Part shown: positions 54,544 to 64,000 of the stretch, one piece after another | Numbering within the stretch: position 1 is the first letter of the stretch | Layout: every line of letters begins with the position of its first letter | NCBI GenBank assembly: GCA_009829735.1 | Contig: CM020620.1 | Location: forward strand, 10,175,794 to 10,239,793 | Reading direction: 5' to 3' | Source of the DNA: Pyropia yezoensis | Taxonomy: Eukaryota > Rhodophyta > Bangiophyceae > Bangiales > Bangiaceae | DNA: 64,000 nucleotides | The notes under the pieces: model-generated | Databases searched by the model: none | What the model was told of the DNA's origin: nothing | What the model saw: the letters and a program-made list of their open reading frames with translations, nothing else | Translations under genes and position numbers: made by a program

Positions 54544-57056
54544 CCCACCCGCCCGATCAACCTGGATCGTCTCCCGCCCCGGCGCGGCACGACTTCGGCG
54601 GCTCCATCTCTAGTCCATGGCGGCGCCACCGGCTCGGGCGCCGCAAAGTTTGGCGCCGCACTCGCACTTGACCCTCCGCTTGGCCCCGGCATAATACGCG
54701 CCGGGGAATGCGGGGGCCCCGCTGACCCACCGGGCTGCGCCGCCCCGAGTGCTCGCCGACCTGGTGGATGGGGTGACTGCTGCAGCCGCAACAGATCGCG
54801 AGCGGCCCCGGCCGACCTACCGGCGCGCGTGTCTCCGAGCGCCTGACGACTTGGTAGGGGAGGCGGCGGAGACGGTCGCGCCGGGTGAGAAGGAAGCGAA
54901 GTCGACCGACCGGTCGACGTCGCCCTGGACGGTCGAAGACTAGGTGGGGGAGGCGGCGGTAGAAGCCCACCGGGGTAATGCAAAGAAAAAAATGAAGACC
55001 GTATTCGCAAATGAGAGGCCAACTCAAGGACAGACGCGACCATGATCAATAGCATGCGCCTCGTCCTGGGTGCCCCAGGCCCGCATGACGCTTGATAACG
55101 TACCGCTCTTCGACCATGATCCGCGTCGCGGTGCGTGACGGCCGCGACCCGCCATGGATGCGGGCATAATGCGGTGCTGAGAATAGACAAAAGGGTGGAA
55201 GACGATAAGGACAAGGGGTGTGGTGTGAAGATGCGACGGAAGCCTCGGCGTGTGGGTATGTCGACGGGAATGGCGCGTTTAGCTGCGGGGGCAGGCACAA
55301 GCGGGTGCGACAACAGGGATCGGCGCTGTCATGGTCGCCAGGGGCGGGCACGTTCTCGGACGCCAACAGAAAAGAGGGCGACGCCGTGCACGCCGTGACC
55401 CAACGCGCCGACCGACACGAGCGCACGGCTCACACAGGGCGTCCGACAGCCTTCCATTCCCTTCCACGCTCCGCTGGGTGGGCGCGAGATAGAAGGGCTG
55501 CGATTGGCTCAGCCTGTCATATCGTAGATACGTGGTCTCAGCTTCATTCGGCATCACCAAATGTGTGGTCACAGACGAAGAAATAAGGAGATCGAACAGA
55601 GCACCGGGTACAGGCCAGGTACTGGATCTGAATCTACAACTTTGAACGCGAACATCACCTTCTCGACTCGTCCTGACACCAATCTAGACCTTGTGGCTCA
55701 GTTGCACCGCGCACGGTGTGCATCTCGAAGGATCTGGGTTCTAGACAGCAGCTTAATTGAGGTTGACCTCCCCGACTATTCGTCAAAGGCATCTCTTCGT
55801 ATGGGAAGAGCAGTTGTGCTCTCCGTCAGACATGTATTTTCGCTCCGCACTTGGCTGTGTTCGTGTAAGGTATTGCGCATGGGTCGAGCTGAAGCTCAAG
55901 TGCATGCAGTTACGTTCACAATCATAACCCTCCACGAAAGATCTGAAACGCTGGCTGAACTAATACAATCGGCCGATACAGTAAATCTGGCGTTGGCGCG
56001 AGTACGCAATGTACAGGGCAAACCGACCTGCGTCTCTTTTTTTATATTTGTTGTCCAGTAGTTGAAGTTTTGATGATCACTCATTCTCACGACTCTCAGA
56101 GCCCTTGGCTGCGCAGCGCGAGCTGCTGCGCCCCTCTGCGCAGGTGCGCGACAAGGAAACGTCACCTGCCGGCAGTAAACGCTGGCCTGCACTCTCAGGT
56201 TCACGGATCGTGCTCTGCGACGGGAGCAGGTGCCATGCATCCCTCTTCCTCACCGTGTCCATGGCCAAGCGGCCCGCCGCAGAAAATGATCCTTCCATGC
56301 GCGACGGCCTTCTCCTTGCGCAGCACTCGATGACAACTGGTGTACCGGTAACGAGCGACGCTCTCAGTGGAGAAAGCACACCGTCACAGTTGCCACCCAC
56401 ATCCAGCGTGAATTTGGCGGCCATCCATTCTCCCAACGGAGCAGTGAGATGAGTTAAGGGATGCCTCCCATGATCCCGCCACCCCTGGGTCCGATTCTGC
56501 TCCGGAAGAGTCTGACTGGGCAGAGGGCCCCGTCCTCAGAGCCGCAGGAATCTTAACATTGGGACCCGTATCTTCATCTGATACCAGTGTTTGACCCAAG
56601 CGCTGGTAGCACAGGCATCCAGCTTGAACGCTATGAGAGCGCTCGCGAACGCCGTAGCCTCGCCGACCACGGCTACGGCGGCGACCGCATGAAGGTGTCA
56701 GCGCGGTCAAAAAGCGCGTCCGGTGGCGGAAGCGATGAGGCCACAGACAAACCCCACTGTCCATTGCCAAGTGCCTGTGAGGCGCAGGGCTACAGCCTGT
56801 GGTATAAAACTCGATCCTCAGACACGTGTCAATATCCCTCGGGGGAAAGGAACAGGTAACACAGAAAGGGGAACTACGAGAGTGGTATGCCTGTTGCCAC
56901 ACGTGCCTGCTCGCAGAGCAAACAGATACGCACGGTAGTGCACACGGGGAAGAGGAAAGCAAACGCGCAGTTGCCTTTTTCCTCAGGGCGCGGGCCAAGG
57001 GCGCCTCGCGGTCCCTCTGAACGTGCATCAGGGGGAGCCTCGGTGTGGCAAAAACC
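54544..57056. other. No gene recognised; weak tRNA-like Pol III boxes
   Basis: About 2.5 kb. TGGCTCAGTTGC at about 55694 resembles an A box, and GGTTCTAGACA at about 55738 a degenerate B box, at roughly tRNA spacing. The stems do not fold into a cloverleaf, so at most a tRNA-derived SINE fragment is possible. Otherwise only short featureless frames. Confidence 0.4.
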
Positions 57057-57892
57057 ACTAGCACACACGGCACCCAAGTTGGGGCGGTGTGCTAGGGCTG
57101 CCTCCCGTGTCGGGGGAACCGGAAGAAGTGCAAGTCGCACACACTCTGTCCCTGTTGTGGGGCAAACCCCCCACGGACAAACAAGAGGATGGTGTGTGGT
57201 CCAACAGTTTCTTGGTCGGGACGGGGACGCAGGGCCAAGCCCCGCTGTCCCTCCCCTTATCCCCCCAGGGTCCACTCAGAATCTCGCCACTCAGAATCTC
57301 CCACCCCAGCACCTGCCCACCGGGCCACACGAAAATTCAAGACGATAAATGCAGAAAACCCTCAAATCCAAGTTGGATTTACTACTAAGCTAACTATCCC
57401 AAACTTAGGGAATATGGACCCAAATGCAGGGGGAGGAACGGATCAGGCTAGTGGCCTGCCGCCCCTTGCATGGCACGTGTTGCCCCCCTACCTGGGGGTC
57501 AATACTGCCACACTCCCCTCTCCTCAGTTCCGACCGACCCGGTCGGCCCTGTGAGGGGGTGCGTAAACGCACGTCTCGGCGTTGGGGGCGCGACTTGCTG
57601 TCCCCCATCGAGTACGTAACACGGATGTGGAGGCGGTCACGTTGACCGCCCCTCTCCTCAAGCTTGCCCACTCGGCAGCTTTCTCTCCTCAGTTCACACT
57701 TCACCATCACCACCACCTCCCCTTCACCTTCCACTGGGCCGCCCCACGCTGGGGAGGCCACCCGTATACCCACGATCCGAGTCCCCCTCAACTCGAGGCG
57801 GGTCTCGTGCTGCGATAGCCAGAGCGTCTCTCCCCAACTTGGGGAGAGCCATGGCGACTCCGTGAGTGGAGACGGACTCTCTTGACGAGCGC

Positions 57893-59794
57893 ATGGAGGA
57901 CACCTCCTACGGGGCAGCACCCGCCGGGACTTCCGGCGGGGGCTCCGCGATCGCTCCGGGGGACGGGACTCCCGCGTCACCCGGCTTTGGGTTGACGGCG
58001 GGGTCTCCCCCGGAGGCGGGACAAGTTGTCCCGCGTGAGGCCTTGGGGCGGTGGTTTTACCCCGCTTGGCCTCTCTATGAGGAGGGGCTGACTGTTCTTC
58101 GCTGTGGCCGACTTGGCGCAGCGATGGGCCGGGTATGGGACCGCCTACGGGAGAAGTATCCCCGTAGTGTCGGGTTCCCTGCCGGCTTCAGGACGGACCA
58201 GTTTGCCTTCCTGGACGATGAGGAGGTTGAGGACGTTCAGCGTGCCAAGGCCATGGTGGACCGCGGGGGAACTATCCCGGGTCCCGGCGACTTGCCGACC
58301 TTCACGTGGGACGCTGTGGCAACTCGCCCACCGTACCTCCACGAGGCCGATCCGCACACTCATCACTTTGATGTGCGGATGGAGAAAGATTTCCGGCGAG
58401 GTCCCTACTTGGTGACCTCGGCTCAACTTGAGTTTCCTCAACAGTCTGCTGCCAGTAAGGAGCAGTACTATCCGAAGAAGCCCGAGTGGTGGCCTCAAGT
58501 TGAGGTCCCCTACGGGTTCCCGGCGTTGTTGCCACGGTTGCTTGACCACTTCGGCTCCGTCATGTTGACGGCTGCCCCTGATCACCTGGTGTGGGCCATG
58601 TTGGCCACCCAGTGGCTCCTCGAGGTCATGTCGACCTGGGTGTCCTGTGTTCAGCGGCGGGGGATGCTCTGGCATCTCCCCCTCCGGCTCCTCCAAGGTT
58701 TGGAACAGCTCACCCCTCAGCTAGTTGCTGAGGGGTGCTCATCAGGACAACTCACTCTACTTGAGGAGATGCCCCGGCTCCATAAGTTTATCGAGTGGGA
58801 GAGCACTGAGCACAAGTTGCGCCGCCCCACTCGTGGGCCCAAGGACGATGGCGCACTTCGCCAGTTCGTGTGGATCGCTCGTGAACTTCACGACGGCCGT
58901 GTGGTCCTACGAGAGGGGTTGGGCATCGGGGACTACCCGTATGCCCCGGGGGTGGATCTCCACACTGCGCCACCCCCGGACAAGCCCATAGTTATGGCCG
59001 TGCCGTCCTATGATGACCATATGACTCAACCCACTGCGGGGGCCCCAAGTCGGGGTCGCAGTTACACCCGGGTACCGCCACCTCGGCGGGCCCCTCCGCT
59101 TCCTCCTGTTCCTTTCCAACCTCACGGGAACATCCCGATCAGAGTGGCCGTGGAGTCTTCCACCCCGGTGTCCCCCAACTTGGGGGCCACCCTCCTGACG
59201 GTATACCCCAAGTTGGTGTTGCCGCCCACGCCTCTAACCTCAGAGATGATGATCACCACGTTGGTGCGCACCATTTCCTGGGTGGCCGCGTCGACCGCAA
59301 CCCTACAGAGTTCCGAGACTCCTCAACTTGAGGAGCGCGTTCGTACTGCAGTGGCGACCGCGAGTTGCGAGTCGGTGGCGGAGTTTATGACAGCCGAGTT
59401 GGCTCGCATTGGGGCTATTATGCCCCAGCCAGCCCCACTTGGGCGTGGCAAACGTCGCGCGAGCCGGGCATACTCGCCTCCTCGCCGTCGTCGCCGACAC
59501 TCGCGGCGCTCTCCTTCCGTATCGGAAGACGAGTTGTCTTACTCCGTTTCGGAGTCCTCTACCCCGTCGGAGACGGAGTCTGTCCAGCGTCTGCGTCGAA
59601 AACTTGCGCGCAAGACCAGGCAGAAGAGTGGCCACGGTCGGCGCCACTTGCGCGATCGTGAGGGGCGCGACGGTTCCGACTTGGAGCCGCCGCCCCCTCC
59701 AACAAGTGGAGACCGTTATCGGCGTGGGTCTCGCCGCTCGCCTCCACGTGAGGGCGAGGGCCGTGGAGTGGGAGAGTCTAGCATGCGTGCCTAG
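57893..59794 (+). CDS. Long unknown ORF facing the chromovirus pol; possible antisense or gag-like protein
   Basis: 633 codons from the ATG at 57893. The frame is open from 57866, and a 4-codon ORF (57851-57865) precedes it in the same frame. The body is well mixed and protein-like. It includes WFYPAWPLYEEGLTVLRCG, FDVRMEKDFRRGPYLVTSAQ, WAMLATQWLLEVMSTW and a helical region around LTSEMMITTLVRTISWVAAST. The C-terminus is Arg/Ser-rich and acidic (SPPRRRRRHSRRSPS, SVSESSTPSETES), like nucleic-acid-binding gag tails. No zinc knuckle. Its stop is 112 bp from the chromodomain stop of the opposing pol. It shares the hairpin array, which suggests it belongs to the same element. Candidates are an extra antisense ORF, as some plant gypsy elements carry between pol and the 3' LTR, or gag of an inverted second copy. 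Confidence 0.6.
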   Translation: MEDTSYGAAPAGTSGGGSAIAPGDGTPASPGFGLTAGSPPEAGQVVPREALGRWFYPAWPLYEEGLTVLRCGRLGAAMGRVWDRLREKYPRSVGFPAGFRTDQFAFLDDEEVEDVQRAKAMVDRGGTIPGPGDLPTFTWDAVATRPPYLHEADPHTHHFDVRMEKDFRRGPYLVTSAQLEFPQQSAASKEQYYPKKPEWWPQVEVPYGFPALLPRLLDHFGSVMLTAAPDHLVWAMLATQWLLEVMSTWVSCVQRRGMLWHLPLRLLQGLEQLTPQLVAEGCSSGQLTLLEEMPRLHKFIEWESTEHKLRRPTRGPKDDGALRQFVWIARELHDGRVVLREGLGIGDYPYAPGVDLHTAPPPDKPIVMAVPSYDDHMTQPTAGAPSRGRSYTRVPPPRRAPPLPPVPFQPHGNIPIRVAVESSTPVSPNLGATLLTVYPKLVLPPTPLTSEMMITTLVRTISWVAASTATLQSSETPQLEERVRTAVATASCESVAEFMTAELARIGAIMPQPAPLGRGKRRASRAYSPPRRRRRHSRRSPSVSEDELSYSVSESSTPSETESVQRLRRKLARKTRQKSGHGRRHLRDREGRDGSDLEPPPPPTSGDRYRRGSRRSPPREGEGRGVGESSMRA

Positions 59795-59905
59795 TTGGTA
59801 GCTGCCTTTGTTGTGAGAGTGTGAGGGTTAGGGCTGTAGTTAAAAGCCACTCTGCGTACCACTTCGACTTGAAGCACTCTCTTGGCACTGTTGCTCGGCC
59901 TTCCC

Positions 59906-60148
59906 TCACGTTGAGGGAGGGCTGTTAGGGTCTATCTCATTCCGGGCACAGTACGCCCGGACCTTCTCAGCGGGAAGGTCCTCCACATACTCCCACGTAT
60001 CGTCCTTGGCTTTGTAGCCAAACCAACGCACCCTCAACATGAGGCGGTCAGTGTCTTCATCCCATCCGTGGTCGATGAACTTATCGAACACGTACTCCTG
60101 CGGGCCCTGTTTGGCCGCAGGCAGTGAGGGGAGGCGCCACGCTTCCAA
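59906..60148 (-). pseudogene. Chromodomain of the gypsy element, out of frame with integrase
   Basis: The frame reads ALEAWRLPSLP then EYVFDKFIDHGWDEDTDRL, VRWFGYKAKDDTWEYVEDLP, a complete chromodomain with its aromatic residues (Y, W, W/Y). It lies one base out of phase with the integrase frame, which instead terminates at 60034. Either a one-base indel or a sequencing error at about 60140-60150 separates them. Confidence 0.85.
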
Positions 60149-63100
60149 AGCACGCGCCCGGCTGGGTCGCCTGCAGGCGGTGGTGCAACTTTGACCACGT
60201 CCTGTCCGTTCACTGTGCGGACCCCATCGTCACTTTCGATGGTGAAGCGCCGCCCATCAGTACGAAGGACCTGGTACGGTCCCTTCGTCTGGAATACCAG
60301 CTTACCCCCAGTTGGGGTGTGCGAGTGTACCAGTACCCAGTCACCCTGCTCGGGGACATGTTTAGCATTGCGCACCTTTTTGTCAAAGGTACGCTTGTAG
60401 CGCTTTTGTGCTTTGTCCATCTCAGCCCTGACTTTAGGGATGAGGTTTTCAAGCCTAGCGGCGAACTCCGCCTTACTCTCAGTAGGAGTAGGCGTACTGC
60501 CACCATCCTCCCTAGTTGGGAGCGACCGCCGCACGGCAATAGACCGCACGCGACGGGGGGTCACAAAAGCGAGGGGTACTTCCCCTGTAGATGAGTGAAC
60601 CTGCGAATTGTAGGCAGTAGTAAGGATAGAAATGTATTGGTCCCACGTCTTCACGTGCTCACTCACATAGTGGCGCAGCTGCCTAACAATAGTTTTGTTG
60701 AAGCGCTCCACCTGCCCATTAGTTTGTGGGTGGTAGGGGGTGGCATAGTTTGCCTTAACCCCCAACATATCCAGCACTCCCTGAAACAGTACAGACGCAA
60801 ATTGCGGTCCATTGTCCGATAGTGTACTATCTGGGATGCCATACGCGGCAACCCAGTGATCTAGGAAGGCTGACACGACCGACATGGCCGTGATCTCTGC
60901 CAGTGGGATCGCTCGCGTAAGTCTCGTGAAGCGGTCACAGATGACCAGGAGGTACTGGTTGCCCTCCTCGGTCACGGGCAGTGGCCCAAGGATGTCCATC
61001 GCCAACGCGGCGAAGGGCTCCTTGGCCGGGAACAATAGCATAGCCGTACTAGGCCGCCGTTCCATCAGACGATTCTGTGCACAACTTGTGCAGGCAGCCA
61101 CCCAACTGTAGATGTCCACCACCATGGACGGCCAGTAGTACCTAGTCCTCAGGGTCTAGTACAGTTTACTAGACCCCAGGTGTCCACCCGTGGGAGCGTC
61201 GTGCTCCCTCTCAAGGATACTGTCCTTGAGGGATGCGGGGACGACAAGTTGTTCGGTCCCCTGGATTACCCCCCTCCTCATGAGGAGGCCATCGTCTCCC
61301 AGAAAGAAGCGCGTCTCTACCACTGTATCCAGTATATCCCTCTGCGACTTGCAGAAGGGATCCTCGGCCTGGGCCTTCACCACCTCGTCCAGGGACAGGG
61401 GCAAGTACTTCTTGTTCCCTGGCGCCTCGGGGTTCAACGCCTGACCCGAGCGCGTGACTACCCCCACGATGGGGATGTCCTCATCGACTGGGTTAGTGTC
61501 CAGCCCCTCGGTAGGTACCCGAGAGAGGCCGTCGGCAAGGGCATGTTGCCTGCCAGGTCGGTATTCAATGTCAAAGTTGAAGGGTGCCAGGCGCACCCTC
61601 CACCGGTTGAGACGAGTGTTCGTACAGTCCGTCTTAAAGATGAACTGCAACGCGCGGTGGTCACAGCGGATAAGGAACTTCTCACCCTCCAGGTAGTGAC
61701 GAAGTGACGTCACCGCCCACACCACTGCGAGTCCTTCCAACTCGGTGACTCCGTAGTTCTTCTCGGCCGAGCTCAGCCCCTTACTAAAGTATCCCACCGG
61801 CAAGTACTCCTTGTCCAGCTGCTGCTGAAGCAACACACAACCAAGTTGGTCGTAGCTAGCGTCCACATCCAGGATGTAGTGGCCTCCCAACCTGGGAATA
61901 GCCAAGATGGGGGGCTTCAGCAGAAGGTCCCGAAGAGTCTCAAAGGATTCCTGCTCCACCCGACTTGGGGGAGGCAGGTTCTTCGGTAGCGTTGAGCTCA
62001 CTAGCTCATTCAACGGCTTCGCCACCTTGGCGAAGCCCTTGGTGAAACGGCGGTACACGTTACACATCCCGAGGAAGCTCCTCATCTGGGTCTGGGTCCG
62101 GGGGTACTGAGCCTTACGAATGGCCCTCAAGTTCTTCTCGTTAACACTGAGACGCCCCGGATGGACAACATGTCCCAAGTACTCCACCTCTTGAGTAAAG
62201 AGGTGGCACTTACTCGCCTTCAGTGACACACCGGCGTCAGCAAGTAGCTTGAACACCTGGCCAAGATGGCCAATGTGTTCCTCCGGACTTCGGGAGAACA
62301 CAATGATATCGTCTAGGTACACAAGACAGATCTGCCACCGTACTCCGGCCAGAATCATGTCCATAGCGCGCTGGAAAGTTGCCGGCGCGTTACACAGACC
62401 AAACGGTAGACGCTTGCACTGGTAGGTACCACAGTGACAGGTAAAGGTAGTTTTATGCCTGTCCTCCGGGGCAATGGGAATTTGCCAGTACCCCGCGTTA
62501 CAGTCCAGGGTAGAGAACACGTTTGCCTCCCCCAGAGAGTCCAGACAGTCATCCATCCTAGGCAGGGGATAACTGTCCTTCACCGTGCTCTCGTTGAGCT
62601 TACGGTAGTCGATACAAAACCGTGGGGTCCCATCAACTTTGGGGACGATAACCACCGGACTCGCCCACTCGGCGTTGCTGGCCTCGATCACATCGAGGGC
62701 CTCCATGCGAGCAACTTGCTCCTTAACGAGGGCACTTGAACGAGGTCCTCCCCTATACGGTTGTTGGCGTATAGGGGGTGCACCGGGCTTCAACTCGATC
62801 CGGTGTTGGGTGGCTCTCATGAGTCCCAATTGACCATCCCACAACTTGTGATATTGGTCCAAGAGGCGTTCAACTTGAACCCTCAACCTGGGGGGGACAC
62901 CCTCCATGTTCACATGGGGTCGAGGAGAAGCGGCCGACTTGGCTTGGTGCTTCTCCTTTCCGGACTTCGGGTCGCTCCTTGCGCCAGCGTTGAGGGTGAC
63001 CGCTACTACCGGTCCCTCGTGTTGGTCGATATAGCAGAACTTGGCTCCCGACTTGAAGTACTTGGGCGTCGGACTCAGGTTCATCACCTGGATCCTCCAC

Positions 63101-63888
63101 GGGACTCCGGCATTGGAGTCCATCGTGCCAAGGGCAACATACACTTGGTGCTTGCGAGCAAGACGGGGGTTAGGGTGCACCAACCCGTTCCCCGAAAAAT
63201 CAGTTACAACATCAACGTGCGCCACCGAGTTGGGGGGCAACGTGACTTTACGGGCTAGACGCAGGGTAGCAGTAAACCCTTCCCTCACAGAGCAAACAGG
63301 CTTCGACTGTGAGACTGTCACAGGAGCTACAGACTTTCCCTTACCAAGGATGGGGATAGTCTCCCCATTCATCAACTTGACCCAGTACTCAGGGCCACAA
63401 ATCAAAGGCACTTGTGTAACAACATAAGGGGTACCCAGAAGCAGGGGTACCGATATATTCTCAACTACGCCATAGGTCACGTCGACCTCATGGGTCCCCA
63501 ACCTAGTTGGTAGGGTCACGGCACCAACGATGGGAAGTACCCCACCATTGATGTAAATCATATGGTCAGCTTTGGACCTCCAGCGTTGGAGCTTCATCTC
63601 CTTTGGTAATAGCGACTTGCGTATCAAGGAGGCTCCTGACCCGGTATCAAGCACGATACGGGCACAACAGGCGCGGCCGGGGGCAAGTTGCACCCGTCCA
63701 GCCACCTGGAAGTTCTCACCCGTCAGCACCGCGATGACCCGACGTGGGTTTACGTTCTTGGGGAGTCCTACCCGAGGTGGGCGGACTCCCTTAGGTCGCC
63801 GCAGTATCCGGCACGGTTGGTTCGTCCTCCTGGCCCACTTGGCCGAGGCTGCCGTTGTGAGCTTCGGACGACCAGCCCCAACGGTCAT
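59906..63888 (-). mobile_element. Ty3/gypsy chromovirus pol (protease, RT, RNase H, integrase, chromodomain)
   Basis: Starts at the ATG at 63888. Domains in order: aspartic protease (VLDTGSGASL, Asp at about 81), reverse transcriptase (FCIDYRKLNESTVKDSYPLP, FSTLDCNAGYWQIP, YLDDIIVFS at about 523) and RNase H (ILDVDASYDQLG, TELEGLAVVWAV). The integrase HHCC domain follows and is interrupted by one in-frame TAG (61156-61158). The integrase core has MDILGPL, LSDNGPQF and NGQVERFN (D, D, E). The frame then runs off near 60150; the chromodomain (EYVFDKFIDHGW ... RVRWFGYKAKDDTWEYVEDLP) continues in the -1 frame to a stop at 59906. Apart from one stop and one shift the pol looks intact, so it is young or under sequence error. 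It encodes reverse transcription and targeted integration; chromodomains steer insertion to modified histones. No LTR was found within the window. Confidence 0.93.
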
Positions 63889-64000
63889 TCGTTTCCCGCC
63901 GACTTGGCGTCCGAATCTGAGGGCGGGGAGGAAGACGACGAGTCCGAGGACGACGTGTCCGCCTCCTCCGCCGAGGGTGTGGCGACCGCAACGACCGGTC
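63885..64000 (-). CDS. 3' end of the gypsy gag ORF (partial, leaves the window)
   Basis: One frame upstream of pol reads an acidic, Ser-rich tail (SAEEADTSSSDSSSSPPSD) ending in a TGA that overlaps the pol ATG as ATGA (63888-63885). Pol may therefore be expressed by termination-reinitiation or by -1 frameshifting. The rest of gag lies beyond position 64000. Confidence 0.55.
   Translation of the reverse strand, partial: PVVAVATPSAEEADTSSSDSSSSSPPSDSDAKSAGNE

Follow-up and report, generated by a model that had tools for sequence, protein, structure and literature searches.

Two related families of Ty3/gypsy retrotransposons in the genome of the red alga Pyropia yezoensis carry dozens of short hairpins centered on ACT or AGT, which run over gag, pol and an antisense gene and, in family 1, also over the long terminal repeat (LTR). 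Each hairpin has one of these triplets in the middle of a loop of 5–8 bases and an arbitrary, complementary stem. The array was characterized in a family 1 copy in a stretch of 64 000 nucleotides (here called the window; C3:10175794-10239793 of the 107.5-Mb genome searched), where positions 57044–64000 belong to the element and bear the array. The explanation that we tentatively prefer, without rating it as probable, is that the hairpins are selected recognition sites that turn over in evolution and would provide multivalent docking for a nucleic-acid-binding protein of the element.

The original prediction, made from the sequence alone, had placed a concentration of hairpins with NA[C/G]TT pentaloops between positions 57057 and 63909. 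We scanned the whole window, in both orientations, for perfect stems enclosing NA[C/G]TT or its complement (hereafter, NASTT-type hairpins), and this concentration was borne out: 33 of the 34 hairpins with stems of at least 4 bp started in this interval, as did 49/57, 17/17 and 7/7 of those with stems of at least 3, 5 and 6 bp, respectively. The four hairpins named as the longest (58711, 11 bp; 61152, 10 bp; 57828 and 57920, both 8 bp) were exact. The location was thus right, and the extent needed correction, the interval being the part inside the window of an element that spans 57044 to ~66419. When imperfect hairpins were included (at least 4 of 5 pairs), 56 ACT/AGT centers were found in 57001–64000, and 76 such hairpins were present in 57512–66419 compared with 7.3 predicted from other centers. 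Their density in different segments (LTR, leader, antisense open reading frame (ORF1), spacer and pol) was 5.4–10.7 per kb, with the core of the reverse transcriptase (RT) lowest. Mean spacing was ~123 bases in family 1 and 77 bases in family 2, for which a looser rule was used. Regular spacing was rejected (coefficients of variation 0.79 and 0.71), and no clear rule of codon phase could be observed (8, 12 and 8 hairpins in the three phases of pol; 7, 2 and 9 in ORF1).

Comparison of all palindromic center classes showed which part of the loop is constant. At ACT/AGT centers, the fraction of flanking bases in Watson–Crick pairs at distances 3–7 was 0.47, 0.42, 0.50, 0.40 and 0.34, whereas at other classes and at even centers it was mostly 0.2–0.3, a clear rise being seen only at ACT/AGT; the AAT/ATT class (86 sites) had no such excess. 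The pair adjoining the ACT/AGT triplet was barely raised (0.33), and thus a hairpin of the array typically has five loop bases, NASTN, above a stem of 4–11 bp. Of the predicted NA[C/G]TT pentaloop, only the central ACT/AGT triplet is invariant, with loose outer loop bases. Both triplets are in use: among perfect stems of at least 5 bp, ACT and AGT occurred 26 and 26 times in family 2 and 12 and 15 times in family 1, although stems of 4 bp in family 1 were uneven (AGT 33, ACT 18). The two loop ends also differed in family 1. Among perfect stems of at least 4 bp read on the + strand, NASTT and AASTN loops numbered 18 versus 3 outside gag and 5 versus 7 in gag.

Shuffled controls did not give similar counts. 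In 100 dinucleotide shuffles of the hairpin region, hairpins with a 5-base loop of any sequence and a stem of at least 6 bp had a mean of 2.2 (maximum 9), compared with 19 observed. Loops of 3, 7, 9 and 11 bases were also raised at this stem length (16, 14, 10 and 9 versus ~2), whereas loops of 4, 6 and 8 bases were inside the shuffle range at stems of at least 5 bp; the exception was loop 6 at stems of at least 4 bp (52 versus a mean of 31 and a maximum of 45). Odd loops are enriched and even loops are not because the structures are centered on one base. Codon-preserving shuffles (500 for each of seven reading frames) never reached the observed count in any frame. For NASTT-type hairpins, the observed counts and shuffle means were 14 versus 0.48 (maximum 3) in ORF1, 5 versus 0.63 (maximum 4) in the RT part of pol, 7 versus 0.25 (maximum 2) in the integrase part and 14 versus 0.47 in the fourth family 1 frame, that is, about one-eighth of the observed count or less under shuffling. 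For ACT/AGT-centered hairpins in three frames of family 2, they were 11 versus 1.08, 21 versus 1.63 and 11 versus 1.20. Thus, amino-acid constraint is unable to explain the hairpins, as had been argued. The accompanying estimate that well under one hairpin would arise by chance was slightly low (the codon-shuffle means for ORF1, RT and integrase sum to 1.36), and this value is still far under the observed number. In agreement with the earlier impression that the pattern is absent elsewhere in the window, neither the other ORFs nor the rest of the window had similar counts. Outside the element, 25 of 809 triplets were hairpin-forming (20.4 expected), which is at chance level, so that the array as a property of the whole window was rejected. 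No hairpins occurred in the neighboring Ty3 element or in four further ORFs of the window, three of which match UCH, BRK or CobW; taken alone, this comparison has little power, as only 0.01–0.41 are expected. A search of 56000–64000 with the Rfam covariance models gave no match at E ≤ 0.1.

The second family is another Ty3 family in the same genome, with at least 36 matches listed in a search with one relative (P0003). It is 60% identical to family 1 in Pol (59% in DNA) and likewise contains an antisense ORF, a homolog of ORF1 with 30% identity in the aligned portion. The DNA of one copy (L055) showed the same pairing signal at ACT/AGT centers, with loops of 5 to 8 bases that are looser than those of family 1 and mostly RASTY. 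The family 2 copies were near-identical (over 2201 bases in 17 copies, 3 variants were shared and 31 were single), as after a very recent burst. We also sampled parts of other elements, namely two Ty3 families with 43–45% Pol identity (2.5 kb each), the Ty3 element beside the 5′ LTR (3.3 kb) and a Copia element (3.7 kb). Hairpin triplets (at least 4 of 5 pairs) accounted for 3/50, 4/71 and 4/85 in the Ty3 pieces and 2/62 in the Copia piece, in which no trace of the array was found, compared with 15/90 and 19/109 in the 2.5-kb RT pieces of families 1 and 2. So far, the strong array appears limited to families 1 and 2 among the elements sampled. The element that adjoins the 5′ LTR (L031:3671-6999) is a different, Ty3-like element on the + strand without a strong array (4/85 versus 1.3 expected). 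Three Copia RT matches of equal score were exactly 5010 bases apart (C1:23419940, 23424950 and 23429960), as if in tandem. No relatives with DNA in viral contigs were found, and a search of prokaryote genomes returned two poor matches with no hairpin signal.

Variation among family 1 copies points to constraint on the hairpins. Hairpins were defined on the window copy and minor alleles were counted over 22–30 copies per piece, the window copy included. Of 778 hairpin sites, 6 had a variant shared by at least two copies, compared with 195 of the 7088 remaining sites (odds 0.27, p 0.0003), and a shifted-mask test of this depletion gave 0.00075. Pseudo-hairpins, defined by the same rule around other centers, showed no such protection, with 39 shared variants in 1568 sites, the real hairpins being lower (p 0.004). 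At third codon positions, the numbers were 4/258 in hairpins and 125/2213 elsewhere (p 0.003). The loop triplet had no shared variant in hairpins (0/198) versus 12/528 for the same triplet outside (p 0.04), and outer loop bases (3/132) and mismatched stem positions (2/80) varied normally. On balance, the depletion pattern in family 1 is what selection on the stem plus the triplet in multiplying lineages predicts.

The docking-site reading rests on the combination of a stem of any sequence, a fixed short triplet, many units, interchangeable positions and constraint. Under it, stem and loop triplet would jointly form one recognition unit, and the units would be interchangeable, so that their number and spread would count and no single site would be essential. 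The zinc-knuckle nucleocapsid of Gag and the antisense ORF1 protein are candidate binders, and docking might package, compact or protect the RNA or cDNA of the element. A binding site for an element-encoded protein, one of the possibilities raised originally, is in this way kept within the best class of explanation, with the binder itself putative.

Several observations weigh against this reading. First, hairpin positions mostly differ between families 1 and 2. Compensatory substitutions, which the original prediction had offered as a check, were clear in two hairpins at a shared place, where both bases of one pair differ (gtatc...gatac versus gtgtc...gacac; tgcac...gtgca versus tgcgc...gcgca); overall, there was no excess, as double changes that keep pairing were 7/29 versus 20/60 in the control and 11/40 versus 76/200. 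This lack of an overall excess implies that hairpins come and go singly while the array stays. Second, the loop-triplet contrast reaches only p 0.04, and paired stem positions (6/580) did not differ significantly from positions paired by chance around non-hairpin triplets (7/388, p 0.39). Singletons, which presumably are mostly post-insertion changes, were also low in hairpins (60/778 versus 769/7088, p 0.007), and the contrast thus extends beyond shared variants. It should be noted that the copies are related and the variants are therefore not fully independent, which the shifted masks answer in part, and that the family 2 copies (shared variants 1/319 versus 2/1882) are too alike to repeat the constraint test. 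Third, the three other Ty3 pieces pooled had 11/206 hairpin triplets versus 4.1 expected (p 0.003), which may be a faint trace of the array outside the two families, perhaps an older form; the trait may not be confined to their clade. Finally, the signal is symmetric between strands, contrary to what a packaging code in sense RNA predicts.

This symmetry was seen in both folding and mismatches. In 100-base windows compared with 25 dinucleotide shuffles each, the mean z-score of folding energy was −1.3 to −2.0 for the sense strand and −1.4 to −2.3 for the antisense strand, versus −0.2 to 0 in three controls. Stem mismatches of both families comprised 28 G-U and 22 A-C of 107 when at least 4 of 5 pairs were required, and 55 G-U and 71 A-C of 275 for at least 4 of 6 pairs. 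By family, the former rule gave 21 G-U versus 13 A-C in family 2 and 7 versus 9 in family 1, and the latter gave 37 versus 45 in family 2 alone. An RNA wobble signature on either strand was weakened, since G-U was not consistently commoner, also when AGT and ACT hairpins were split. With an equal signal on the two strands, a code restricted to sense RNA becomes less likely, and one carried by DNA or by both RNA senses agrees better with the data. Thus, of the suggestion of a structured genomic RNA, the structured nucleic acid is kept, and the plain sense-RNA form is weakened by the equal folding of the antisense strand and the missing G-U excess. In the docking-site reading, the bound form would more likely be DNA (cDNA, either strand) or both-sense RNA than sense genome RNA alone. 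A more specific proposal is a strand-symmetric code, in which hairpins in DNA or in RNA of both senses would be recognized by a dedicated reader, possibly ORF1, to compact, package or shield the element; we regard it as possible but doubtful, and the open full-text literature searched yielded no system of this type. One detail of family 1, the loop end outside gag, is strand-asymmetric.

A mutational process that makes palindromes had also been proposed. In this case, a template switch, either in reverse transcription or when the host replicates its DNA, would copy one arm onto the other, mend mismatches and perhaps invert the loop. Such copying accounts for stems with Watson–Crick pairs only, for strand symmetry and, if correction recurs in each cycle, for the depletion of stem variants; moreover, the single base gained by the window copy at 61152–61176 (absent from all 30 other copies) completes a 10-bp stem, and it also makes the stop in pol. 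However, hairpin arms were conserved between the families at 0.62 and 0.58, versus 0.59 at other Pol sites, and their changes had an ordinary codon-position pattern and no left–right imbalance, so that arm divergence looks like step-by-step change rather than one arm copied from the other. Replacement of an arm in a single multi-base event was rejected, as the divergence of the arms matches that of Pol elsewhere. Of 14 clustered private changes in single copies, judged by eye, none makes such a palindrome. Correction of single-base mismatches would leave little trace, and the prominence of ACT/AGT centers and the sparing of the loop triplet are left unaccounted for by copying. The process is thus weakened, and we consider it unlikely, if still the foremost of the rivals. 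Defense against silencing, the last of the original suggestions, is a conjecture.

In another alternative, which appears rather improbable, AGU loops pair with ACU loops in a kissing network of many weak contacts by which the RNA of the element condenses or dimerises. The loop set would then have to be closed under complement. Such a network accounts for the use of both triplets and for C/G rather than A/T at the center, and family 2 loops, mostly RASTY, are mutually complementary. On the other hand, a role in RNA should tolerate G-U in stems, which was not clearly seen, the stems of 4 bp in family 1 use the two triplets unevenly, and only the three central bases are constant in that family. 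Somewhat less credible again is folding in both senses, whereby an element transcribed both ways would limit sense–antisense duplexes, and hence silencing, by folding on itself; it agrees with the conserved antisense gene, with the equal folding of the two strands and with the lack of a clear preference for G-U, but it requires no constant loop triplet, and antisense transcription of gag and pol is putative. Chance, composition or codon usage has practically no prospect of explaining the array even though the earlier estimate was rough and the GC content of the element (0.59) is unlike that of its surroundings (0.66), because dinucleotide and codon shuffles, other triplet centers, the rest of the window and other elements all fail to give it.

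The coordinates of the element and of individual hairpins are given in Table 1. With its LTRs, a CCHC knuckle in gag and the order RT–RNase H–integrase in pol, the family 1 element is, by its sequence features, a Ty3/gypsy LTR retrotransposon. Self-comparison placed the 5′ LTR past the window edge (65951–66419), with two differences from the 3′ LTR and termini TGTGGC...GCCACA; no target-site duplication was found beside the two LTRs (57039–57043 and L031:3714-3718) despite 99.6% LTR identity. The start of pol is aspartic-protease-like, with a DTGSG motif in the translation and a weak match to Asp_protease_2 under the cut-off (E 0.064), and the C-terminus of the integrase has a weak match to Pfam Chromo, under the curated cut-off (E 0.00096). 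The window Pol had at least 50 matches in the genome (its own included) with 97–100% identity, and 45 of those listed were without stop in the matched stretch. The window copy has a stop in pol at 61156 and another soon after the beginning of ORF1, where the upstream ATG at 57851 meets an in-frame stop; intact copies exist elsewhere, with a pol of 1327 aa.

Table 1 Features of the family 1 element and selected hairpins (window positions)
Feature	Position	Strand	Details
Ty3/gypsy retrotransposon (family 1)	57044 to ~66419, running past the window end	−	From LTR self-comparison
3′ LTR	57044..57512	−	469 bp; 5 hairpin centers inside
Antisense ORF1	57851..59794	+	642 aa counted from 57866
Integrase part of pol (rve)	60034..61125	−	Pfam
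Reverse transcriptase and RNase H part of pol	61156..63888	−	Pfam
gag end	63885..64000	−	656-aa ORF with CCHC zinc knuckle, mostly past the window
Longest hairpin	58711..58737		11-bp stem, loop TAGTT
Hairpin	61152..61176		10-bp stem, loop CAGTT
Hairpin	57828..57848		8-bp stem, loop AACTT
Hairpin	57920..57940		8-bp stem, loop GACTT
Hairpin inside LTR	57364..57380		6-bp stem, loop AAGTT
Hairpin in RT region	62184..62206		9-bp stem, loop GAGTA
Hairpin	61078..61092		5-bp stem, loop AACTT; a family 2 hairpin occupies the corresponding place, with both bases of one pair different

ORF1 lies between pol and the 3′ LTR, antisense to the element. Its own reading frame shows coding constraint, as shared variants at codon positions 1, 2 and 3 numbered 2, 4 and 29 (648 sites each). 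Searches of Pfam and PDB gave no match for it, and structure prediction gave an unusable model (mean predicted local distance difference test score 32). Homologs were identified in family 2 and in Pyropia vietnamensis (annotated as hypothetical proteins), with at least seven protein relatives among the matches listed, and 63 of the 71 related loci listed in the genome had no stop in the matched stretch. The translation of the family 1 ORF1 has a basic, RS-rich end.

If the array is a selected code, a retrotransposon has superimposed a structural signal on all of its sequence without losing three reading frames, which run in two coding directions. It would be a countable example of genome-wide cis structure in a mobile element of cells, for which dozens of copies and two families serve as natural replicates, and it would become directly testable how such elements select, condense or conceal their nucleic acid. 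If a copying process made it instead, that process would be an unusually specific palindrome-making activity. In the open full-text literature, as far as excerpts of it go and with subscription papers outside its coverage, no description of a retrotransposon with such an array was found, and under either reading the array is beyond explanation by the literature found.

Several known systems share part of these features. Template switching has been described to make palindromes in RNA genes (PMC8794818) and, with spacer inversion, in yeast coding genes (PMC8604942). Quasipalindrome mutations of this kind have perfect stems and inverted loops, as here; they differ in that an added ACT/AGT specificity would be needed and that neither arm replacement nor clustered events were seen in the present case. 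The VANDAL elements of Arabidopsis, whose sequence-specific anti-silencing protein VANC is described as acting on noncoding regions, are likewise mobile elements with an accessory gene. VANDAL elements carry many repeats of a short motif, and we know of no VANC motifs that are palindromes with variable complementary arms. Plant Ty3 elements of the Tat lineage have an antisense ORF between pol and the 3′ LTR, which resembles ORF1 in position and orientation, ORF1 itself being without a Pfam or PDB match. The genome-scale ordered RNA structure (GORS) of persistent RNA viruses is similar to the Pyropia element in its unusually low folding energy along the sequence; to our knowledge, GORS has no constant loop triplet, unlike the Pyropia array with its ACT/AGT triplet and equal signal on both strands. 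A further likeness in form is to the dispersed packaging signals of picornaviruses, hepatitis B virus, satellite tobacco necrosis virus and MS2, which also consist of many stem-loops with a short common loop motif (RGAG in the signals for the hepatitis B virus core), and such multivalent arrays have been reported to drive assembly in RNA viruses. Dispersed packaging signals act on the packaged RNA sense. In the Pyropia element, many stem-loops with a common loop were found, and the signal was not limited to one packaged sense, given both triplets, equal folding and G-U without a clear advantage. Thus, unlike these viral signals, the array is equal on both strands, belongs to an LTR retrotransposon and has its hairpins spaced by ~123 bases in one family and 77 in the other.

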